28,595 nt of DNA. Origin: a virus. This document shows, piece after piece, positions 1 through 9,796 of the stretch (position 1 is its first letter; every line of letters starts with the position of its first letter). The notes under the pieces are model-generated. The model was not told the DNA's origin and did not search any database. It worked only from the letters and a program-made list of their open reading frames with translations. The translations under genes were made by a program, and so were the position numbers. Where the stretch lies: IMG/VR virus record IMGVR_UViG_3300025410_000070, positions 1-28,595 of that record. One strand, written 5' to 3'.

Positions 1-246
1 CAATCGTAACTTTGATTGCAAGTTTCCCTTATACTTTTCCTTGTGGATGTCTTCTGGTGTAAACAGAACGCGCCATCCTCCAATTAACGGTTTATAAGAC
101 ACCCAAAAACCAAAATGCAAATTGCCGTCTTCTTTTAATTGAACGTCAGTTTCTGAATTTTCCCCCAACGCTGGCTTTAAGTGAAAATATTCAAAACCTC
201 TTACACCCGGTAAAATTAAATCTTTTATTTCTTCCATTGTTTTCAT
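1..246 (-). CDS. Hypothetical phage protein, C-terminus outside window
   Basis: An open frame starts at ATG 246 and runs to the left edge without a stop, so only the first 82 residues are visible. It begins MKTMEEIKDLILPGV and has a mixed beta-rich composition (for example FGFWVSYKPLIGGWRV). I do not recognise the family. The start overlaps the stop of the upstream gene as ATGA (246-243), the same coupling used throughout this minus-strand cluster, which supports it as a real last-visible member of the operon. No signal peptide or membrane segment is seen. Function unknown. Confidence 0.7.
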   Translation of the reverse strand, partial: MKTMEEIKDLILPGVRGFEYFHLKPALGENSETDVQLKEDGNLHFGFWVSYKPLIGGWRVLFTPEDIHKEKYKGNLQSKLRL

Positions 247-464
247 TTTGGCGGCTCCGGTAATGGCATCCAACGACTGAATTGTTTTTTAAACACATCT
301 TTTTCAAGACATTTTTTCTTTAACCCATCAGGACAATTATAACCCACAATTTCCCATTGGAGAGTTAAAATATTGAAACATGCCATCATCACACAGGAAT
401 CTTTTAATTGAACCAAAATTGGTTTGTCGTGTGGCGCTGTTTCTATTGGTTGCCATTCAGTCAT
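243..464 (-). CDS. DUF551-like small phage protein
   Basis: A 73-residue protein with the two hallmarks of the DUF551-type phage family. The N-terminal WQPIETAP is at residues 4-11 and the C-terminal SRWMPLPEPP lies just before the end. Family members are common in early or accessory phage gene clusters and have no established biochemical role. The start at 464 overlaps the preceding gene's stop as ATGA, and its own stop overlaps the next start the same way, so translation is probably coupled. The middle section is shorter than in many relatives, but both ends are intact. The family call is from motif memory, not a search. Confidence 0.8.
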   Translation of the reverse strand: MTEWQPIETAPHDKPILVQLKDSCVMMACFNILTLQWEIVGYNCPDGLKKKCLEKDVFKKQFSRWMPLPEPPK

Positions 465-820
465 AGCCCTTCACCTTCTTCGCAGTCTATTTCTACCTTC
501 ACGCAAGCAAGACGGTTAGGCGCTTGCAACCTATCGGCATGTTCTTTTGATAAACATCCAATGGTTGCTCCTTGCGTCTCAGGGACAATATTAAACCAAA
601 ACGTCCGCTTGATGCGTGGTTTGACTTCAACAAGGTTATCTTTATAATGGCTGTTATAGATATCAACGCCGTATTTGTTCCAACGAGTGGATTCCCATTC
701 GCCATTCTTTAAGATGGCCCCGTGAACTGAACACGTGCCGCCACCATCGGTTGCATAAATCCGCACTTCACGCCCATTACGGGTGCGGTATTGTTTGTTG
801 ATGTCGATTTCATTAATCAT
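461..820 (-). CDS. Conserved phage hypothetical protein (NGREVRIYATDGGG)
   Basis: A 119-residue protein. Its N-terminal half resembles a recurring phage family in which a (D/N)GREVRIYATDGGG segment (residues 15-28) is followed by VHGAI and a tryptophan-containing strand. Such proteins are small beta-rich unknowns in accessory clusters. The C-terminal half (FWFNIVPETQG, then a cysteine-containing segment and an acidic tail) looks like a second small domain. The start at 820 overlaps the upstream stop (ATGA) and the stop overlaps the downstream start. No catalytic motif is visible and I infer no function. Confidence 0.75.
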   Translation of the reverse strand: MINEIDINKQYRTRNGREVRIYATDGGGTCSVHGAILKNGEWESTRWNKYGVDIYNSHYKDNLVEVKPRIKRTFWFNIVPETQGATIGCLSKEHADRLQAPNRLACVKVEIDCEEGEGL

Positions 821-1053
821 ACATTTATCCCTTTTGAAAACAGATGATATTCCCCTTCAAAATCATCAGGCTCTGCATCACGGATTATGTATGAAGATTT
901 AATATCGTCATTGCATTTTGCCCAGTGATCCTTGGCATCCCTATTGCTTAACAGGCATTTCCTAAAATTCCCTTGTGTCGTCGTGTATTCAATCACAACC
1001 CAATCTGGTTGGGGAATTTGATTTATCATTACGGGTTCAATGCCGCCACTCAT
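817..1053 (-). CDS. Hypothetical phage protein
   Basis: A 78-residue protein beginning MSGGIEPVMINQ. I chose ATG 1053 rather than a TTG six codons upstream because it gives the ATGA overlap with the upstream stop seen at the neighbouring junctions. The sequence has a short beta-rich N-terminal part (WVVIEYTTTQGNFRKCLL) and an acidic C-terminal part. No motif, signal or membrane helix is recognisable. It is supported mainly by its position in a tightly coupled operon and by lack of a better frame. Function unknown. Confidence 0.7.
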   Translation of the reverse strand: MSGGIEPVMINQIPQPDWVVIEYTTTQGNFRKCLLSNRDAKDHWAKCNDDIKSSYIIRDAEPDDFEGEYHLFSKGINV

Positions 1054-1295
1054 AACCGCACCATCCCGCAAAACCCGTGGGTTGTGCTAAATAGTCCTTC
1101 GCGTATCACGCAATCGTCTATATCTTTTACTTCTTTAATTAAATTAACCCACCGCCAAGCCATGCATTTGGGGCCGTCACAATAGTATTCCCATTTAGCA
1201 TTTTGCTTCCGTTTTGCCATTGGGCAAAGTTTGTAGTCAGCTTCTTCAGGCGTCACATAGTGTAAGTTGTCAGTCGGACTTTGGTTTATCGTCAT
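1050..1295 (-). CDS. Small Cys/Trp-rich conserved phage protein
   Basis: An 81-residue protein with the pattern YVTPEEADYKLCPMAKR followed by CDGPKCMAWRW (about residues 39-49). This resembles a small phage family in which a CP(M/F) segment and a C-x(3-5)-C-MAWRW segment are separated by a short linker. The three cysteines could help bind a metal, but no fourth ligand is obvious. It overlaps the upstream gene by 26 bases. Its stop overlaps the next start as ATGA. Role unknown; the family resemblance is from memory and should be confirmed by a profile search. Confidence 0.75.
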   Translation of the reverse strand: MTINQSPTDNLHYVTPEEADYKLCPMAKRKQNAKWEYYCDGPKCMAWRWVNLIKEVKDIDDCVIREGLFSTTHGFCGMVRL

Positions 1296-1461
1296 CGTCG
1301 TTCTCGTTGATTGATATGGTTAAGTTTGTTATCTGTGAGTAGGCAAATATTATGGCTTCCATTTTATCTATTTGCGCAATTGATTGGGCGCACTCACGCT
1401 CAAGCATTTCTATTCTGTCTTTTAATACGTCAACGTATCGCATTACTGGATCATCAGTCAT
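1270..1461 (-). CDS. Short coiled-coil-like hypothetical protein
   Basis: A 63-residue protein whose residues 8-42 (VDVLKDRIEMLERECAQSIA and the stretch after it) have heptad-like spacing of hydrophobics. It probably forms one long helix or coiled coil, followed by an acidic tail with a DDDD run. A GAGGAAATTAAC Shine-Dalgarno context precedes ATG 1461, and the start overlaps the preceding stop (ATGA). The 3' end overlaps the next gene. Such short helical proteins are common phage fillers or adaptors; nothing points to a specific function. Confidence 0.65.
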   Translation of the reverse strand: MTDDPVMRYVDVLKDRIEMLERECAQSIAQIDKMEAIIFAYSQITNLTISINENDDDDKPKSD

Positions 1462-1712
1462 GGCTTGTTAATTTCCTCAAAGTCTACGGGATATTGCTTA
1501 TAGTTGGCAATGAAGTTTCCGGCGTCAACCAAAGTGTCAAAATCGGCAATCACGTCATAGCGCAACCCAAATTTGTGCCAACGCTTAACTTGGAAAATAA
1601 CCTTTCCGTTTATCTTATTGCTATTTTCGTCATAAGTAGCCGCTTGGTCTACATCAATGATCCACTTAGGGTGGGGGCTAAAGAATTTAATTAAAGTGTA
1701 TACGAAGTTCAT
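1458..1712 (-). CDS. Hypothetical phage protein
   Basis: An 84-residue protein with an aromatic-rich N-terminus (MNFVYTLIKFFSPHPKWIID) followed by a predicted beta-rich body. The N-terminal stretch is hydrophobic but interrupted by KFFSPHP, so it is not a convincing membrane helix. The start overlaps the upstream stop as ATGA, and the gene ends in an ATGA overlap with the next one. No family recognised. It is credible as a gene because it fits the coupled operon exactly and no competing minus-strand frame covers the interval. Confidence 0.65.
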   Translation of the reverse strand: MNFVYTLIKFFSPHPKWIIDVDQAATYDENSNKINGKVIFQVKRWHKFGLRYDVIADFDTLVDAGNFIANYKQYPVDFEEINKP

Positions 1713-1948
1713 TGTACTGATCCTTCTGGTTTAACATTGGTTTCTATAATAACAGATGCAAATACCATAGCGGCTTTACTGCGTTCTGGTTCATCTAACT
1801 GGTCCAAAACCGTTGCAGAGAATACCGACAGGATGTGCAGGATAGTTCCAATGCTCATGTTATCAACAGCCGCGCCAATGGCATCGTATGCCGCAATGTG
1901 GCGTTCCTGCTTTTTCTTTTCCATGTGTTCGTTAAGGTCTATGGTCAT
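1709..1948 (-). CDS. Helical hypothetical protein
   Basis: A 79-residue mostly helical protein. It has a charged N-terminal helix (MTIDLNEHMEKKKQERHIAA) and a more hydrophobic central part (MSIGTILHILSVFSATVLDQ). The centre is amphipathic rather than a clear transmembrane segment. A GAGGAAG Shine-Dalgarno lies a few bases before ATG 1948. The gene overlaps its upstream neighbour by 17 bases and its downstream neighbour by ATGA. I do not recognise a family. A small helical dimer or regulator-like fold is possible but unproven. Confidence 0.65.
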   Translation of the reverse strand: MTIDLNEHMEKKKQERHIAAYDAIGAAVDNMSIGTILHILSVFSATVLDQLDEPERSKAAMVFASVIIETNVKPEGSVQ

Positions 1949-2213
1949 TTAACTTCCTCATTCTTTCATCTTGTCGTTTCACGTAATCAATTTGTTCCTG
2001 AAACCATTCTTGGTCTATTGGGCTAACCGCCAATGTCTTAGATCGTTCCAGCCAGTCCAGATGCCACTTATCGTAGATTAGCTGCTGTTCAAATTCCGTC
2101 TTGTTTTGGTCTAACCACGCCACATGATCTTTTTTTAAAGCTTCCATGTCTTCTTTTACGGATGGGTGGTTAGGGATGTATGGTTCTATGGGGAATGTAT
2201 TTTCTGTGTTCAT
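1932..2213 (-). CDS. Hypothetical charged helical protein
   Basis: A 93-residue protein beginning MNTENTFPIEPYIPNHPSVK. I prefer ATG 2213 over a start four codons upstream because 2213 makes the ATGA overlap with the stop of the Tat-signal gene before it. The body is rich in W, K, D, E and Q (for example WLDQNKTEFEQQLIYDKWHL), suggesting a soluble helical bundle. No catalytic or DNA-binding motif is visible. Function unknown. Confidence 0.65.
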   Translation of the reverse strand: MNTENTFPIEPYIPNHPSVKEDMEALKKDHVAWLDQNKTEFEQQLIYDKWHLDWLERSKTLAVSPIDQEWFQEQIDYVKRQDERMRKLNDHRP

Positions 2214-2689
2214 AGCATTTTCCAAGGTTTGCGAATTGGCCCGGCGCTATCAAATTGAGTTGTGCAGGAAGTATCTGGACCAACAGTGCCATAGATTGTC
2301 CACGCAGGATCATCCAGCCAAGCTTTGCGTTGCTGTTCTTGTTTAAGGATACGGTCTGCTATGATTTGGTCTACGGTACGGTCATCCAAACCAACCGTTC
2401 TTTGCCAATGATTGGATTTAGGCAACATATCTCTACTTGGCACACCGTAATCCCACGATGTAACCCGCACCATGTTGGCAAACTCTTGCGTACCCGCAAA
2501 CAGATTGGCGTTAGTTGGTTCCCAAAACTTATGAATAACTGTCTGGCCGGACAAATCTAAACCTGTGACGGTAGCAAATGGTGTAGCTTGTGCTGCATTA
2601 ACAGCCATAACACCAGAGTAACGAATCACAGCAGGTGTAGCTACAAGTGCAGTTAAGCCAGTAAGGAACTTACGACGGGATATGGTCAT
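2210..2689 (-). CDS. Putative exported protein with twin-arginine-like signal
   Basis: A 159-residue protein beginning MTISRRKFLTGLTALVATPA. The SRRKFL motif followed by a hydrophobic stretch and a small-residue region fits a Tat signal. This would route a folded protein across the cytoplasmic membrane if host TatC recognises it. The mature part has no recognised domain. ATG 2689 was chosen over starts further upstream because it gives the best signal and repeats the initiation context of the neighbouring gene (AAG, AAAATAAAC, ATGAC). Similar Tat-like leaders occur in phages of Alphaproteobacteria, with no known function. It overlaps the upstream gene by 20 bases. Confidence 0.75.
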   Translation of the reverse strand: MTISRRKFLTGLTALVATPAVIRYSGVMAVNAAQATPFATVTGLDLSGQTVIHKFWEPTNANLFAGTQEFANMVRVTSWDYGVPSRDMLPKSNHWQRTVGLDDRTVDQIIADRILKQEQQRKAWLDDPAWTIYGTVGPDTSCTTQFDSAGPIRKPWKML

Positions 2690-2987
2690 GTTTATTTTCT
2701 TCATATAAAACAGTTGTATTAACTTCACCTTCAATCAAGTTAAGTTGTTTTAATTCATGAAGATTTTTGGCATATTCATGAACGTCCATTCCAATTTCTG
2801 AGCAAAAATCTGCTTGTTCCTGTGTTAAACCAATTTTTACAGGAACGCGGACATTAGCCATCACTACACCTTCTGCGGCGGCTTCCACAATTTCTGGGTT
2901 GGCTGGAGTAATTGGTTCTGCTTTAGTCGCAATAGATACAGGAGCAAAACCCAACATAGCCAAAAAAGAACGTCGTTTTATAGTCAT
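2670..2987 (-). CDS. Second putative Tat-signal protein
   Basis: A 105-residue protein starting MTIKRRSFLAMLGFAPVSIA. The KRRSFL plus hydrophobic stretch is a twin-arginine-like leader closely resembling that of the following gene, but the mature regions do not look alike. The likely mature part contains a helical stretch (LTQEQADFCSEIGMDVHEYA). A strong AAGGAAAATAAAC context precedes ATG 2987. It lies two bases downstream of the preceding gene. Function unknown. Two successive leaders of this type suggest a cell-envelope role, perhaps superinfection or host-surface modification, but that is conjecture. Confidence 0.7.
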   Translation of the reverse strand: MTIKRRSFLAMLGFAPVSIATKAEPITPANPEIVEAAAEGVVMANVRVPVKIGLTQEQADFCSEIGMDVHEYAKNLHELKQLNLIEGEVNTTVLYEENKHDHIPS

Positions 2988-2989
2988 GT

Positions 2990-3196
2990 TTATTTTCCTT
3001 GATAAGTAGGGGGAGGAGCGACGTAATTTATAATATCGTCAAGCGTCCACTCAATCGGGGGCTTTCTCCAAAGGACAGAATCTTCTTTATGCGAACCCGC
3101 CGCAATAGCAGCAAAAATTCTCATTAAAAACTTTTCTGTGTCAGTAGGTGTTTTTAGGTTGTCAATTTTATTGAGGGCGTCTGTTAGCTTAAACAT
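2990..3196 (-). CDS. First gene of the left operon, hypothetical
   Basis: A 68-residue protein starting MFKLTDALNKIDNLKTPTDT. A good GGAG Shine-Dalgarno lies about 6 bases before ATG 3196, and a promoter with near-consensus boxes lies directly upstream (3218-3246). This is therefore probably the first gene of the minus-strand operon. It appears to have a small helical N-terminal domain and a Pro-rich C-terminus (YVAPPPTYQGK). No family is recognised. Confidence 0.7.
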   Translation of the reverse strand: MFKLTDALNKIDNLKTPTDTEKFLMRIFAAIAAGSHKEDSVLWRKPPIEWTLDDIINYVAPPPTYQGK

Positions 3197-3217
3197 GTTG
3201 TTCTCCGTTATGGTGTT

Positions 3218-3246
3218 TGCATAGCGTGTAAAATATCACAAGTCAA
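3218..3246 (-). promoter_or_regulatory. Sigma-70-like promoter for the left operon
   Basis: On the minus strand TTGACT (3246-3241) is followed after 17 bases by TATGCA (3223-3218). Transcription would start near 3211, leaving a very short leader that contains the GGAG ribosome site of the gene starting at 3196. It is the only well-formed promoter I see for the twelve-gene left cluster. Confidence 0.65.
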
Positions 3247-3511
3247 GCACTGGAGTCCCAAGACTGTGTATGAGTTATACGGGGGTAGGGGTCGCTAATG
3301 GAACCCCACCCCACCCCATTTGAACATTAAAATGATGGTGTCCGTTGCCAACACGATTGGCTGGCACCCAACAAAGCCTCACACGGAATCAACATGAGGG
3401 GGCAACAGGATACGCCGACCGCGACAGACCACAGTCCATTGTCCTGCATTAGCGTAGACTACTCAAGCTACAAGAACACCCAAGCGAGGCAGCCATGTAG
3501 CAAAGATGGCA

Positions 3512-3541
3512 TTGCCCTACAAGGAATATTTTGTAGGGCAA
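3512..3541. repeat. Perfect 10-bp inverted repeat
   Basis: TTGCCCTACA (3512-3521) and TGTAGGGCAA (3532-3541) are exact reverse complements around a 10-base loop. The plus-strand copy is followed by A rather than T, and on the minus strand no T-run follows the stem. A simple intrinsic terminator in either direction is therefore unlikely. Confidence 0.75.
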
Positions 3542-3813
3542 AAACTAATACAGGGGTGTCAGTTAGGGGCGGTGTATAGCGCTAAGTAATACAGGGGTGG
3601 GAGTTATACGGGACTGCGTATAAGGGGCGGATATACGGGAGGGCGTATATACCAAAGTACACCGGAAGTGGGGGTGATTATACCAAACAGGGGGTTAGGT
3701 ATAGTGAAATGCACCTAACGGGGGTTAGTGTTCAGTTAAATGGGTTTTAGGGAAATTTTGGGATGTTATGTGAGTGATGCGGAGCGTCAGGGATAGCATC
3801 AGTGTATTAGCGG

Positions 3814-3831
3814 GGGGTATGGGTATACCCC
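3814..3831. repeat. GC-rich stem-loop GGGGTAT/ATACCCC
   Basis: GGGGTAT (3814-3820) and ATACCCC (3825-3831) enclose a four-base GGGT loop. It also contains the perfect palindrome GGGTATACCC. No T-tract follows on either strand. Confidence 0.65.
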
Positions 3832-3900
3832 ACCGGGGGTTGCGCGGCTCGGATAAAAACATAAGCATATCTTTATATGGTTATGTGCTTGACCATATTG

Positions 3901-3952
3901 GTTATGCTCAAGTCAAGCATAACATAGTTATGTTATAACATTACATAACTAT
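3901..3952. repeat. Two back-to-back perfect stem-loops at the terS 3' end
   Basis: Stem 1 is GTTATGCT (3901-3908) with AGCATAAC (3916-3923), loop 7. Stem 2 is ATAGTTATGT (3924-3933) with ACATAACTAT (3943-3952), loop 9. They touch without a spacer, and stem 2 includes the terS stop codon. No T-run follows on the minus strand, so they look more like 3'-end protectors or protein sites than classic terminators. Confidence 0.7.
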
Positions 3953-4518
3953 AGATCATCATCCTTTGCATCTGATGGTGCTATTGCCTTTAGCATCGAC
4001 GCAAGTGCTGATCGATCATCATAATCTAACTTGGCTATATTGATGGTTTGAGTGATCACGGTATTACCATCAGCATCATTATGCTTAAGTGCATCACCAT
4101 ACTTTTTGGGTCTTATCTTTCCTGCCATCCATTTGCGCGTGTCAATTTGCACTTGTGCGCGGCGAATAATCTCGTTCGTCGCATCCAATGGTATGTTGTC
4201 AGCGATGTGAAGCGTCTCATCAAATAACGTGTCGGCTTGTTCGTCTCGCGCATATGCGTATTGTCGAGCAAAATCGGCGTTTCGCGCAAGCCACTTCCTA
4301 ATTGTGCTTCCATCCGGAAAGTTAACATCACGACATATCGCCCTCAAACTCTCGCCATTAGCCAATCGATCAAGCACTTTATCTGCAATCGCTTCATCAA
4401 AAACAAGATGACGCCCACGCGATGACAATTCCCGTGGGCGATCTAAAATCACTTGCCCATTTTTGACTGTCTTAACGGTTTTACTCGCTTTCGCTTTCTT
4501 CACTTGTTTCATCTTCAT
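3949..4518 (-). CDS. Terminase small subunit-like protein
   Basis: A protein of 189 residues, very basic at the start (MKMKQVKKAKASKTVKTV). A helix-turn-helix region follows at about residues 56-80 (GESLRAICRDVNF then STIRKWLARN). Next comes a helical segment with YARDEQADTLFDE, and then RKWMAGKIRPKKYGD (residues 128-142), a typical pattern of small-terminase-like phage proteins. Such proteins bind the packaging site and recruit the large terminase. No large-subunit ATPase gene is nearby and the virion genes are over 15 kb away, so a DNA-binding role other than packaging is possible. ATG 4518 is chosen for its AGG five bases upstream; GTG 4524 and ATG 4512 are alternatives. It overlaps the acidic gene upstream. 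Confidence 0.8.
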   Translation of the reverse strand: MKMKQVKKAKASKTVKTVKNGQVILDRPRELSSRGRHLVFDEAIADKVLDRLANGESLRAICRDVNFPDGSTIRKWLARNADFARQYAYARDEQADTLFDETLHIADNIPLDATNEIIRRAQVQIDTRKWMAGKIRPKKYGDALKHNDADGNTVITQTINIAKLDYDDRSALASMLKAIAPSDAKDDDL

Positions 4519-4714
4519 CTTCACCTAACAATAATTGTTCATCGACGTATTCTAACACATCATCGATAGCATCTATTGCTTGTAATAAGAATGATTGCTG
4601 AACAGTAAAATCTAACAGATCAAATTCATCTGCCCAATCAAGCGAAATCTCGACATCACCATCTTCACTATTAACTAGGCTAAACGTAAGCATTGGCACG
4701 GCATCTTCAGACAT
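4481..4714 (-). CDS. Acidic hypothetical protein co-transcribed with terS
   Basis: A 77-residue, strongly acidic protein ending in GEDEDETSEESESE. The body (VEISLDWADEFDLLDFTVQQ and beyond) predicts a beta strand followed by amphipathic helices. AGAGGA lies before ATG 4714. Its last 38 bases overlap the start of the small-terminase gene. The same GAA-rich DNA encodes an acidic tail in this frame and the basic terminase N-terminus in the other. The two proteins might interact through these charges, but that is inference. No family recognised. Confidence 0.65.
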   Translation of the reverse strand: MSEDAVPMLTFSLVNSEDGDVEISLDWADEFDLLDFTVQQSFLLQAIDAIDDVLEYVDEQLLLGEDEDETSEESESE

Positions 4715-4831
4715 GGCTATAATCCTCTGTTAATTACCAAATCACTTAGGCAATATTCTATATCACCATCACAATTATGTGAATTAACGCATATTTCACG
4801 CCTGGGGCCGGGAAATAACTTAATCTACATT

Positions 4832-4861
4832 ATTTTATGTAAATATGCGCATGGGTGACAA
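4832..4861 (-). promoter_or_regulatory. Candidate promoter for the terS operon
   Basis: On the minus strand TTGTCA (4861-4856) and TAAAAT (4837-4832) are spaced by 18 bases. The -35 box is one arm of a palindrome, and a perfect ATGCGCAT palindrome fills the spacer, so a repressor could sit across it. Confidence 0.5.
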
Positions 4862-5016
4862 AAATTGTCATGCTTTTTAAATCGATTTAGAAGCCCAATA
4901 ACGGCATTTAACTATGGTCAAGTACCATGTATCAAAAAAATCAATCTTTCAAAAACGCGAAACAAAACAAGAACATAGCATTTCTTGGCATAGTTATTGT
5001 ATACTTATGTTGCTAC

Positions 5017-5046
5017 TTGACCATATTGAATAAATCATAGTAAAAT
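5017..5046 (+). promoter_or_regulatory. Candidate promoter for the Cys-rich gene and exopeptidase
   Basis: TTGACC (5017-5022) and TAAAAT (5041-5046) lie 18 bases apart, upstream of the gene starting at 5106. The -35 box belongs to a 13-base word, CTTGACCATATTG, that occurs identically at 3888-3900. A perfect ATGGGC/GCCCAT inverted repeat (5051-5071) follows in the untranslated leader. Confidence 0.55.
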
Positions 5047-5105
5047 CATCATGGGCAAATCATATGCCCATAACAACAGTCAAAACGATGCAAAGGATAA
5101 AAACA

Positions 5106-6575
5106 ATGTTTCAGGTGATCTGTTTAGAAACGGGTGAAGCACTTAAAGATGGTCAAGGTAATGTCATTAGCTATGAACAAGGCAGCAATGCCGCATTTTG
5201 GGCAAATCAATTCACTGTCGATACTGGCAAGAAGCACCAAGTTAGACGGGTAGCAAGTAATGAAGATTGGCGTAAGCGTGAGATGGATAAATTCACCAAT
5301 GGCGAATACGATATACCGTTTTGGCTAGTGTCATATGCCGAAACACTATCTCAATATGGTTATGATGGGCATGATCGCTTTGTTCACGTAAGCAAGTTAG
5401 ACCCTAGCAAGATCGCATATACGCAAGATGCTGATAAAGGTGAGCGTAATATCCAAACGCAAATAAAAGTCGGGTCATATATTCAACAATCGACTAAAGA
5501 AATGCCTATGATGATTGTGCGCGAGATATCACTTGCCCATGCCAAGCATTACGCACCTAATGAAGTGCAATTTGCTATAAGTGCTGATGATATTGTCGAA
5601 GTATACGCTAACGGGCCGAATTCCTGCATGGGCGGACAAGACACTAGCGGCAGAGTTTCTAGTGGTAAAAAAGACGCATCATTCTTTAACTATATTAACG
5701 ATGTGTCATGCCATCCGGTTTCCGTTTATGGTGATAGCGATTTATCACTTGCTTATATTAAGGATGATGATCGCATCACGGCTCGATGCCTAGTTTGGGC
5801 AGATCGAAAGATATTTGGCAGATCATATGGTGATAGTGAGCGTATCGAAAGCGCATTACGCAATCTTGGCTATCAATTTGGATACTTTAATGGTGCAAAG
5901 ATTAAGCACATTATTTGCGAGAATAATCGCGAAATAGTGTTGCCATATCTTGACCATACCCAACACGTTAAAGTGCTAAATAGCGAATGGTTAGAAATAG
6001 ATCGTAATGGTGACATTTTAGGTGATAGCACGAATGGCATAGCTAATCTAAATCAAGAGAGTTGCGAAAATTGCGAGGATACCTGCCGTGAAACCTATGA
6101 AGTTTACACCGGTAGAAGATATAGCCAATCATGGTGTGAAGGATGCCGCGATAATAACGCATTTTATTGCACTGGCACTGATCTATACGTCGATAACGAT
6201 GAAGAAACAACAATCGATGGTGATAGTTATGCGTCATGGTACGCAAACGATAACGCACACTATTGCGAATATAGTGAACAGTGGACATTCGGCGAGACTG
6301 TTACCGTTCATCGCATGACCCCTACCGGAAGAATACTTGGCCAAGAATGCATCATCGATATAATAGATGATCATGCTTTCATGTGCCGTATTAGCAATGA
6401 GCATTATGAAACGGAATTTATGGTTAAAGATGTTTGGACAGATGAGCCAAGAGCGATTTGCCATTATCCTAATGATATACCATCGTGGTATATTGGTGAG
6501 ATAGTTTATAAAGACCCTGCCCAATGTCAGATGACGGTAATAGCAACTTATCAAGGGTACGCATTGGTAGCATAA
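5106..6575 (+). CDS. Conserved phage protein of unknown function with C-terminal Cys-cluster
   Basis: A 489-residue protein. ATG 5106 is preferred because AAAGGA lies 7 bases upstream; an ATG at 5064 lacks a ribosome site and falls inside a leader stem-loop. Notable segments are ANGPNSCMGG (about residue 167), then DLSLAYI, ITARCLVWADRK and GRSYGD. These resemble a conserved unknown phage family with an ARCxVW...YGD core. From about residue 320 there is a CENCEDTC cluster, then CEGC and a YC pair, suggesting a zinc-binding ribbon. No polymerase, nuclease or ligase motif is recognised. It is followed by three stem-loops and the exopeptidase gene on the same strand, and shares their codon habits. 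Function unknown. Confidence 0.75.
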   Translation: MFQVICLETGEALKDGQGNVISYEQGSNAAFWANQFTVDTGKKHQVRRVASNEDWRKREMDKFTNGEYDIPFWLVSYAETLSQYGYDGHDRFVHVSKLDPSKIAYTQDADKGERNIQTQIKVGSYIQQSTKEMPMMIVREISLAHAKHYAPNEVQFAISADDIVEVYANGPNSCMGGQDTSGRVSSGKKDASFFNYINDVSCHPVSVYGDSDLSLAYIKDDDRITARCLVWADRKIFGRSYGDSERIESALRNLGYQFGYFNGAKIKHIICENNREIVLPYLDHTQHVKVLNSEWLEIDRNGDILGDSTNGIANLNQESCENCEDTCRETYEVYTGRRYSQSWCEGCRDNNAFYCTGTDLYVDNDEETTIDGDSYASWYANDNAHYCEYSEQWTFGETVTVHRMTPTGRILGQECIIDIIDDHAFMCRISNEHYETEFMVKDVWTDEPRAICHYPNDIPSWYIGEIVYKDPAQCQMTVIATYQGYALVA

Positions 6576-6636
6576 CAATAGTTATGACGCATCGTGGCAG
6601 CATGATGCGTTATAGCGATTGTTAATGTGACAATCG
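6571..6636 (+). repeat. Three consecutive perfect stem-loops between two genes
   Basis: CATAAC-AATA-GTTATG (6571-6586), ACGCATC-N10-GATGCGT (6587-6610) and CGATTGT-N7-ACAATCG (6616-6636) lie almost end to end between the Cys-rich gene and the exopeptidase gene. The first includes the upstream stop codon. No U-tract follows. They could mark RNA processing or stabilise the two transcript halves, and they match the style of the stem-loops at 3901-3952. Confidence 0.7.
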
Positions 6637-6654
6637 ATAGCGAAAGAAACCAAC

Positions 6655-7683
6655 ATGACAAAAACAATGTTAGAACGTAAGAAACCTAAGTTGATATGCG
6701 ATAACCCAATCAATACATTGGGCAAGATGATGCAAACGATGCGCCCATCTAACACTAAAACGCTATACAATTTTATAGATGATTACATTTTACCACTAGG
6801 TGCAACATTAGATCATGCGGGTAATGCCGTTATTCGCATTGGTGACAGTAAAGTATTATGGTCATCTCATACCGATACCGTGCACCGCGTATCGGGTCAT
6901 CAGCGCATCGTGGTCAATGGTGATATGCTTAAGTTGGGGCATGGGTCACTATCTAATTGTTTAGGTGCAGATTGCACCACTGGTGTTTGGTTAATGCGCG
7001 AGATGATCTTAAATAATGTTGCAGGGTTATATGTCTTTCACGATAGTGAAGAAATAGGCGGCATTGGGTCATCTTGGTTAGCTAAACACCATAACGGGTT
7101 ATTAGATGGTATTGATTACGCGATAGCGTTTGATCGCAAGGGTTATGATAGCATCATCACTCACCAATCAGGCGGCAGATGCGCTAGTGATGCTTTTGCT
7201 AAATCATTAGCTAAACAATTACCAAACGCATATGAAACCGACGACACTGGCACTTTTACTGATACCGCCAATTACACTAGCGTTATCGGCGAATGCACCA
7301 ATATTAGCGTAGGTTACTTTGCACAACATACCGCCAATGAAACGCAATCGATTAGCCATGCCCTAGAATTGCGCGATGCAATGTTGCGCTTTGACGAAAG
7401 CAAATTGGTCAAGTCACGTAATGCAGGTGATATTGACCCTGATAGTTTCGATTATCGCTTTGGTAGTTATGATCGCAATTATAAGGGTTATTATAGCGAC
7501 AATGGCTATTACGATTATGGTTTCAAATCCGATACCAAAGGCAAGAAACGGTCTTATAACAGTTTCTACGATATGGTTGATTATATCCAAGATAATGCTG
7601 ATGCCGTTGCCGATATGCTTGATCAGTATGGTATCACGTTAGATGACATTATCGATCACGTCGAAGGGTCAAATAAAGGTTAA
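6655..7683 (+). CDS. Phage-encoded zinc exopeptidase (MH-clan, M20/M28/M42-like)
   Basis: A 342-residue protein with the full metal-site pattern of co-catalytic zinc exopeptidases. H72 and D74 lie in SHTDTVH, the bridging D106 in GADCTTG, and E132-E133 in HDSEEIGGIGSS. D160 lies in AIAFDRKG and H225 in GYFAQHTANE. D74 and E132 would be catalytic and the others would hold two zincs. In known families these enzymes remove N-terminal residues or split small peptides or amides; the substrate here is unknown. Residues 255-305 form a Tyr/Asp/Gly-rich linker (YKGYYSDNGYYDYGF) before a helical C-terminus, an unusual appendage. There is no signal peptide, so it is probably cytoplasmic. It follows the Cys-rich gene and precedes a small membrane peptide. 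Confidence 0.8.
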   Translation: MTKTMLERKKPKLICDNPINTLGKMMQTMRPSNTKTLYNFIDDYILPLGATLDHAGNAVIRIGDSKVLWSSHTDTVHRVSGHQRIVVNGDMLKLGHGSLSNCLGADCTTGVWLMREMILNNVAGLYVFHDSEEIGGIGSSWLAKHHNGLLDGIDYAIAFDRKGYDSIITHQSGGRCASDAFAKSLAKQLPNAYETDDTGTFTDTANYTSVIGECTNISVGYFAQHTANETQSISHALELRDAMLRFDESKLVKSRNAGDIDPDSFDYRFGSYDRNYKGYYSDNGYYDYGFKSDTKGKKRSYNSFYDMVDYIQDNADAVADMLDQYGITLDDIIDHVEGSNKG

Positions 7684-7848: not shown

Positions 7849-8080
7849 GTCGTCTTTTTTTTAATCGATTGATCGCGATCTTTCGAAACGATGACCCGTG
7901 CCTGGAGCCTGGCCCTGGAGCAGAACCCAAAATCAAAACCAATTCGGTTTTAGAAATGCCATTTGGATTTGGATTTGGATTTGGATTTGGATATTGAAAA
8001 TGAAATTAGATTTGGATTTGGAATTGGATTTGGAGTTGGATTTTAGTTTGGATTTGGATTTAAAATGTTACAAATATAAC
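7849..8080. repeat. Non-coding spacer with CCTGG cluster and ATTTGG hexamer array
   Basis: After the terminator come a T-run, three CCTGG words within 18 bases (7901-7918), and then an ATTTGG array. Five perfect tandem copies fill 7961-7990, and degenerate copies continue to about 8061. The frame through it would read as alternating Ile-Trp then Leu-Asp, typical of translated repeat DNA, and it runs over the next promoter, so I do not call a gene. The array could be an iteron-like origin element, a slippage-prone spacer or a protein-binding array. Confidence 0.75.
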
Positions 8081-8621: not shown

Positions 8622-8903
8622 ATGACCAAGAAAATGGATTGGATTAAAGAATACCGTGCCGACATTCAGTCATGCTATGGCGATGACCCTGTAGAGGGCT
8701 ATATTTACCATTTTGGCGAACCCGATACAGAATGGTTTGAGAATAACCTTCATATCTATAAGAATACCCACTTCCCGCATGGGGAGTGGTACCTTTGCAT
8801 TGGCAACCAAGAATGGGAGTCAGATGATTTGGAAGAGTTGGAAAGTATTCTTTGGAAAGAAGCCATTAGCTTGGGCCGCACCCAATATGCGGGTGAGCCA
8901 TGA
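8622..8903 (+). CDS. Hypothetical phage protein
   Basis: A 93-residue acidic protein rich in W and E (for example DTEWFENNLHIYKNTHF and GNQEWESDDLEELESILWKE). Two starts are possible: ATG 8607, overlapping the previous gene, or ATG 8622, one base after its stop. Neither has a strong ribosome site; I use 8622. It ends in an ATGA overlap with the methyltransferase gene, so both are probably translated together. The fold could be a small alpha/beta domain. Function unknown. Confidence 0.65.
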   Translation: MTKKMDWIKEYRADIQSCYGDDPVEGYIYHFGEPDTEWFENNLHIYKNTHFPHGEWYLCIGNQEWESDDLEELESILWKEAISLGRTQYAGEP

Positions 8904-9796
8904 AATGGGCTTATTACAATGAAATTGACCCGTTTGCCGCGCAATGGTTGAAAAACCTGATTAAGGGGGGGCTTATTCCGAATGGCGAAGTTGATGAAAG
9001 ATCAATTATCGATGTTAAACCTGATGACGTCAAAGGATTTACCCAAGTCCACTTCTTCGCAGGTATCGGTGGATGGGCATATGCAACCAAACTTGCGCGA
9101 TGGCCCATCGACAAACCAATTTGGACGGGAAGTTGCCCCTGCCAACCATTCAGCGTTGCCGGAAACCAAAAAGGGCAGAAAGACGAAAGACATCTCTGGC
9201 CCACCTTCTTTAGCCTCATTAAAGCCTGTAGGCCCGATGTGGTTATGGGAGAGCAGGTTGCGGCAGCGGTTGGCAAGTCTTGGCTCGACGGAGTGTTCAC
9301 TGACTTGGAAGGCATCAATTACTCCGCAGGGGCGACCGTTGTTCCGGCTTGTGCCGTCAACGCACCGCACCGCAGGGACAGACTTTGGTTTGTGGCGAAG
9401 TCCTCAAGCGTCAGAGGCGACGAGGGGTCCGAAAACGGAGAAGTTTTACAAGCATTGCATCCAAACGGGTCAGTCAATGGTAACACTGACGGATCAGACA
9501 CGACACGCGATGTGGCCTACCCCATCGTCGAGGGACGGCAAGGGTGGCTATCAGGGTGGTCGGATACGGAATGGCAAACTGTCGAACGATACGTTGGACG
9601 TGACGGCCCAACACACTGGTCAAATGCAGGTTGGATTGGAGGGGCAGACGGCAAACAAAGGCGGTTTGAACCCTCAATTCGTCTGTTGGCTTATGGGGTT
9701 TCCGCCAGAGTGGGAAAGCTACGCGCCTACGGCAACGCCATCGTCCCGCAAGTCGCGGCAGAAATAATGAAAGCATATTTGGATTCACACGGCTAA
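8900..9796 (+). CDS. C5-cytosine DNA methyltransferase
   Basis: A 298-residue enzyme that would transfer methyl from S-adenosylmethionine to C5 of cytosine in DNA. Visible motifs are FAGIGG (residues 53-58, cofactor binding), PCQPFS (80-85, catalytic C81), GEQV (117-120, in the place of the usual ENV), HRRDRLWFV (157-165) and GNAIVPQVA near the C-terminus. The N-terminal 50 residues precede motif I, as in many phage relatives. The region between about 166 and 265 would recognise the target; its site cannot be read from sequence. The GEQV variant recurs in phage members. The start overlaps the previous stop (ATGA). A second long frame overlaps it, described separately. No cognate restriction gene is visible. 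Confidence 0.93.
   Translation: MKWAYYNEIDPFAAQWLKNLIKGGLIPNGEVDERSIIDVKPDDVKGFTQVHFFAGIGGWAYATKLARWPIDKPIWTGSCPCQPFSVAGNQKGQKDERHLWPTFFSLIKACRPDVVMGEQVAAAVGKSWLDGVFTDLEGINYSAGATVVPACAVNAPHRRDRLWFVAKSSSVRGDEGSENGEVLQALHPNGSVNGNTDGSDTTRDVAYPIVEGRQGWLSGWSDTEWQTVERYVGRDGPTHWSNAGWIGGADGKQRRFEPSIRLLAYGVSARVGKLRAYGNAIVPQVAAEIMKAYLDSHG
8982..9767 (+). CDS. Long frame nested in the methyltransferase gene, protein-like (WPTP/LTWK type)
   Basis: A 261-codon frame lies almost wholly inside the methyltransferase gene, shifted by one base. Its distal half reads like a real family product. It has SLTWKASITPQGRPL (near residue 107), STHRTAG, GLWRSPQASEATRG, MWPTPSSRDGKGGYQGG (near 177), LNPQFVCWLMGFPPEW (229-244) and ATPSSRKSRQK at the end. 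I recall LTWK, WPTP and LNPxFxxWLMG as recurring segments in phage methyltransferase-associated proteins. The start is uncertain: ATG 8982 has no clear ribosome site, so expression might need frameshifting or internal initiation. It could alternatively be a relic of a fused or tandem second gene. Confidence 0.5.
   Translation: MAKLMKDQLSMLNLMTSKDLPKSTSSQVSVDGHMQPNLRDGPSTNQFGREVAPANHSALPETKKGRKTKDISGPPSLASLKPVGPMWLWESRLRQRLASLGSTECSLTWKASITPQGRPLFRLVPSTHRTAGTDFGLWRSPQASEATRGPKTEKFYKHCIQTGQSMVTLTDQTRHAMWPTPSSRDGKGGYQGGRIRNGKLSNDTLDVTAQHTGQMQVGLEGQTANKGGLNPQFVCWLMGFPPEWESYAPTATPSSRKSRQK

Follow-up and report, generated by a model that had tools for sequence, protein, structure and literature searches.

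In a viral record of 28,595 bases (IMGVR_UViG_3300025410_000070, analysed over its full length and hereafter called the window), a predicted zinc hydrolase gene at 6655–7683 is coupled to an unannotated gene directly upstream of it. This co-conserved neighbour, at 5064–6575 on the + strand and 503 amino acids long, lies outside the stretch described in the first-pass annotation, which overlooked it, and is the chief result of our analysis; its family is here named the SCM protein. As SCM adjacency is nearly constant, the peptidase appears to belong to a two-gene system, widespread in phages, of which it makes up one half. Our preferred reading, to which we give a probability of about 0.45, is that 6655–7683 encodes a single-domain exopeptidase or amidohydrolase with a co-catalytic di-zinc site, apparently active, and that this enzyme and the SCM protein form a module acting on an amide-type modification. 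The features of the peptidase gene are as follows.

6655–7683, + strand: zinc exopeptidase-type protein, PHROG 4191 'peptidase', 342 amino acids, no internal stops
Residues about 16–255, + strand: catalytic domain, from the AlphaFold2 model and structure matches over 16–253
6868–6876, + strand: H72-T-D74, predicted metal-site motif, invariant in 57/57 relatives
6970–6972, + strand: D106, predicted bridging metal ligand, invariant in 57/57
7048–7053, + strand: E132-E133, predicted general base and ligand, invariant in 57/57
7132–7134, + strand: D160, predicted ligand, invariant in 57/57
7327–7329, + strand: H225, predicted ligand, invariant in 57/57
7420–7563, + strand: linker of residues 256–303 (about 256–304), rich in Tyr, Asp, Gly and Ser and mostly predicted to be disordered, from model and composition

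An invariant di-zinc site in a zinc-peptidase fold

The protein carries the MH-clan ligand order H, (D), D, E-E, D, H. The seven co-catalytic residues listed in the first-pass annotation (H72, D74, D106, E132, E133, D160 and H225) were correctly positioned and proved invariant in all 57 aligned relatives, which, judged from the alignment, is not a chance outcome. AlphaFold2 modelled residues 20–255 with a pLDDT of about 97, and the model adopts an alpha/beta zinc-peptidase fold that matched dozens of MH-clan structures at Z 20–25. The best solved structures all aligned over residues 16–253, namely 3rza (Z 25.4, 226 residues, 2.2 Å), 3gb0 (Z 24.7) and 2wyr (Z 23.5), which are di-zinc peptidases of the M20 and M42 families. 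The invariant ligands and the fold together back the earlier reading of the gene as an MH-clan di-zinc hydrolase, and its product is very probably an active enzyme of that kind.

Profile searches gave a graded picture. The PHROG 4191 'peptidase' profile matched the window protein at E 2.7e-73 over residues 19–273. A Pfam search with the window protein itself gave no match, Peptidase_M28 (PF04389) being absent at E 0.1; the same family matched 45 of the 57 relatives weakly, at E 0.1 or better, and the relative in SU503 scored above its cut-off (24.7 versus 21.3 bits). A PDB search with the single window sequence gave no match.

The linker that follows the catalytic domain had been described as an unusual Tyr/Gly/Asp segment. 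It does exist, with pLDDT below 50 over residues 269–300, and it differs from the solved M20, M28 and M42 enzymes; it is not peculiar to the window protein, being typical of the family. Across the 57 relatives, Tyr and Trp are enriched 2.7-fold and Asp 2.1-fold in the linker over the catalytic domain, and aliphatic residues are depleted. The Tyr/Trp/Asp pattern recurs in the peptidases of huge phages, and the linker is basic instead in a Bradyrhizobium-type subgroup. Conserved helices at residues 304–340 close the protein; 90% or more of relatives retain L322 and G326. Two peptidases of about 590–650 amino acids (L027, 4815–6761; L031, 4875–6641) have extra segments between the linker and these C-terminal helices.

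Distribution of the peptidase

The enzyme had been thought rare in phages, a view contradicted by PHROG 4191 and by our searches. Relatives were found by tblastn in 389 of 50,697 phage records, mainly Autographiviridae of Klebsiella, Pectobacterium and Vibrio but also phages of 735 kb and 642 kb, and a pattern scan of IMG/VR recovered 487 stretches encoding the peptidase. It occurs across whole genera, among them Drulisvirus, Phimunavirus and Maculvirus. The genomes of 84,980 bacterial and archaeal species yielded 15 matching loci, 12 of them close. Several bacterial loci share gene coordinates and lengths with IMG/VR contigs (for example L100 and L051), so that most of the peptidase loci in bacterial genomes are probably prophages.

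Pairing with the upstream SCM gene

The partner gene and the region separating it from the peptidase gene show these features.

5064–6575, + strand: SCM partner protein, 503 amino acids, with an N-terminal region, a core at about residues 160–305 and the C-terminus ...ALVA
Residues about 160–305, + strand: SCM core motifs S187-C188-M189 and P294-Y-x-D297, from the family alignment
C-terminal, from about residue 330, + strand: LIM-like Cys/zinc region, a weak LIM resemblance
6571–6627, + strand: very stable RNA hairpin between the SCM and peptidase genes, with a core stem of 16 pairs at 6581–6616

SCM homologues lie directly upstream of the peptidase in Pasto, BDU-MI-1, SU503, MA2, VP93, Peat1 and Peggy. 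With an iterated profile, an SCM gene adjoined the peptidase in 89 of 96 loci, the usual gap ranging from a slight overlap to about 60 nt. Among the exceptions, two contigs start inside the SCM gene (L048, L093), one is cut by the contig end (L095), one had no SCM gene within 1.5 kb upstream of the peptidase (L033), one is a huge phage (L012), and two carry very distant peptidases (L013, L014). In the last of these, Cellulophaga phage phi40:1, a better profile detected the SCM gene directly downstream, an order repeated beside a distant peptidase in Thermus phage TSP4; one Spirochaetaceae contig likewise shows this reversal of the usual order. All 12 close relatives in bacterial genomes have an adjoining SCM gene. 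Counts of phage-collection records for peptidase and SCM agree closely (Klebsiella 230/231, Pectobacterium 51/51, Vibrio 42/42, Escherichia 10/10, Shigella 4/4), and the distances within the two families are correlated (r = 0.81, reached in 0 of 2000 permutations), as expected for any co-inherited gene pair.

Huge phages loosen the pattern. LR756501 and LR756502 encode 5 and 4 peptidases and about 19 and 11 SCM matches, respectively, with a few genes split over two matches. Only about 3 of the 9 peptidase copies have an adjoining SCM gene and the SCM copies are the more numerous, so that a strict one-to-one pairing does not hold. In the 735 kb phage LR756501.1 (L009), tandem SCM paralogues lie beside two peptidase genes (1–5908). 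One LR756501 peptidase carries, as a C-terminal fusion, the zinc region found in SCM proteins (E 2.4e-5; E 1.8e-6). A small ORF of L009 (12207–12629, - strand) bears this region alone. The domain shared with the peptidase is thus mobile, and its specificity lower than at first sight. The metal site, the fold, the genetic linkage and the zinc domain shared in a huge phage are all well supported, and a functional link between the SCM protein and the peptidase is almost certain.

In those phages whose gene order allows a judgement, the module belongs to the early genes, ahead of the replication genes, in agreement with the early position reported for the peptidase (PMC6115819). Earlier genome papers listed the peptidase and an adjoining hypothetical protein among conserved ORFs and drew no connection between them (PMC6115819, PMC4411677). 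The enzyme belongs to a known phage family, and the pair as a system is undescribed in the openly licensed literature that we searched, subscription papers lying outside the search.

This pairing bears on the reading of the enzyme as an independent metabolic peptidase, which would provide amino acids or dispose of host peptides. The PepT-type fold suits such a role, as does a distant homologue in Bacillus phage FADO that has no SCM neighbour and is annotated as peptidase T. We nevertheless consider this the least probable of the readings, given near-universal SCM pairing and co-inheritance in many unrelated phage groups. The FADO gene (L013, 3920–6210), a distant PepT-like peptidase, adjoins a GmrSD_N (DUF262) protein.

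A conserved third neighbour was rejected, as the flanking genes vary (terminase small subunit, GHKL/rIIA-like, integrase, Toprim). A scan of 31 records for a PF12224 amidoligase as third member gave no match, but the controls likewise gave none, and the blank is therefore no sign of absence; one structural match in BFVD carries the name amidoligase. In ten loci of rhizobial-type phages (L002, L030, L044, L046, L051, L052, L070, L072, L075, L076), the next gene after the peptidase measures about 2.1 kb; it is annotated rIIA in BDU-MI-1, and GHKL ATPase matches occur among such neighbours.

The neighbourhood also bears on the reading of the pair as a system with which a phage excludes other phages or defends against them. 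Its presence in bacterial genome contigs, several of which resemble IMG/VR viral contigs, would fit, as would its position beside the rIIA-annotated gene in BDU-MI-1 and beside similar-sized ORFs, some with GHKL-type ATPase matches, in several rhizobial loci. However, the pair is present throughout lytic genera such as Drulisvirus, and PADLOC defence models gave no match to the seven proteins searched, which leaves a defence system quite improbable.

Anatomy of the SCM protein

The invariant residues of the SCM family are C188 (within S-C-M), Y222, G277, P294, D297, G325 and C334, and a weak resemblance to LIM-type zinc domains is seen in its C-terminal part. Local confidence of the model is good (pLDDT 87.9, pTM 0.56). 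For residues 164–274, the list of structural matches consists mostly of GNAT-fold enzymes, including FemX, ATE1, LF-transferase and MprF; the scores are low, with Foldseek E above 0.1 and a top Z of 5.4, less than the Z 7–8 usual for models that lack a clear match. Profile-profile comparison with hhalign against eight GNATs, a small set with no positive control, found no match and so lent no support to GNAT membership, and no GNAT family was among the 25 Pfam families listed for 57 members. Given the weak scores and the empty profile comparison, the GNAT-like nature suggested by the model is only a lead.

The C-terminus of the SCM protein is biased. AA or VA ends were found in 45% of 82 SCM proteins versus 8% of 436 other ORFs from the same loci, counts that related sequences inflate. 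Overlap with a Shine-Dalgarno sequence is insufficient as a cause of the Ala-rich end, because the share remains at 39% where the peptidase start is at least 25 nt away. The SCM proteins examined in LR756501 lack an AA end.

Two further readings draw on these data. In one, the SCM protein would be a non-enzymatic adaptor that delivers host proteins either to the peptidase or, by way of its Ala-Ala-like C-terminus, to ClpXP, with the peptidase trimming exposed ends. The enrichment of AA/VA ends, also at the larger gene distances, favours this, the surplus of SCM genes over peptidases in huge phages would fit many adaptors per enzyme, and the LIM-like zinc region points the same way, protein binding being common among such regions. 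The invariant Cys188, Y222, G277, P294 and D297, however, resemble an active or ligand site and not a variable adaptor surface, and the inflated C-terminus counts and the LR756501 proteins without the AA end also speak against it; we hold the adaptor reading to be rather unlikely. In the other, the SCM protein would be the substrate, trimmed or matured by the exopeptidase, for example at its conserved small C-terminal residues. Strict adjacency and the biased C-terminus are consistent with that idea, but a number of SCM copies have no peptidase nearby, and roughly half of the partners, as well as the huge-phage copies examined, lack the bias, so that this reading is improbable.

Proposed mechanism

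In the preferred reading, the two proteins would form an early module, the hydrolase acting on what the SCM protein produces or targets. The SCM protein, a putative transferase or adaptor, may be the target-facing half, as its invariant Cys and LIM-like zinc region suggest; it would place an amide-type modification on a target of host or phage origin, or recognise one there, and the zinc enzyme would trim or remove that amide bond. The module could thereby serve host takeover or counter-defence. The GNAT-like chemistry of the SCM protein, the substrate and either of these roles are inferences. On the processing of host peptides or cell-wall precursors and on counter-defence, roles raised in the first-pass annotation, the data weigh neither way. 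A specific form of the idea, with the peptidase as eraser to a GNAT-like SCM writer, is possible but on balance doubtful. A broader version is unlikely: the SCM family, with its invariant Cys and with LIM-like zinc domains for targeting, would add a new branch to the GNAT-like or aminoacyl-transfer enzymes, the PHROG 4191 enzymes its dedicated erasers, and the two would carry a widespread, undescribed, reversible protein modification used in early host reprogramming.

A 'peptidase' annotated in hundreds of phage genomes thus travels with one uncharacterised partner, in phages of Proteobacteria, Bacteroidetes and Thermus as well as in phages of 640–735 kb, and two orphan early genes become one testable system. 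Klebsiella Drulisvirus phages are frequent subjects as therapy candidates, and, to judge from the record counts, virtually every member found carries both genes. Neither gene product is among the three toxic proteins from a Drulisvirus toxicity screen, which at 69, 182 and 146 amino acids are too small (PMC7291057).

Other features of the window

The hairpin between the two genes of the module has a predicted energy of -33.1 kcal/mol for 6570–6660 (z -5.4 versus shuffles); it may fix the proportions in which the two proteins are made, or terminate transcription. At 7961–8061, directly past the module, the hexamer ATTTGG is repeated in tandem about 17 times with 79% matches, and a small ORF translates it as a repeat of Asp/Leu/Glu or Trp/Ile. 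Two adjoining small proteins on the - strand (2210–2734 and 2670–2987) carry twin-arginine-like signal peptides (SRRKFLTG and KRRSFLAM), unexpected in a phage; the protein at 2210–2734 had no match in the phage collection. A 261-codon open frame at 8982–9767 (+ strand) overlaps the C5-cytosine methyltransferase gene (8900–9796) in a different frame.

Comparison with known systems

For the SCM protein, the nearest comparison is with the GNAT-fold acyl- and aminoacyl-transferases, whose order of helices and strands resembles that of residues 164–281; the scores are not significant and sequence support is absent, and the invariant SCM motif has no counterpart known to us among GNATs.

The closest kin of the peptidase are the PHROG 4191 members KP34p11, PhiM1_10 and VP93 gp7, which belong to the same family and are likewise early genes adjoining a large hypothetical protein, although they are only about 30–43% identical to the window protein. 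Among solved structures, the PepT-like M20B enzymes 3rza and 3gb0 have the nearest fold and an identical ligand order, and 3gb0 was also matched weakly by a profile of the phage family (E 1.5e-6). However, the M20 lid (dimerisation) domain is absent from both the sequence and the model, and the phage relatives score far below the cut-off of TIGR01883. The M42 TET aminopeptidases (2wyr, Z 23.5) have the fold and the metal site in common with the window protein, but their PDZ-like insert is missing from its sequence and model. Enzymes of the M28 type, such as the Aeromonas aminopeptidase, have a single catalytic domain without an insert, as does the window protein, in which D160 and H225 are only 65 residues apart and residues 16–253 were modelled as one domain with no lid; the linker and the C-terminal helices are additional to M28. 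Having neither the M20 lid nor the M42 insert, the enzyme is laid out like M28, whereas by fold score it is closest to M20B and M42. We class it within the MH clan as a single-domain branch of phage type, assigned to no single MEROPS family.
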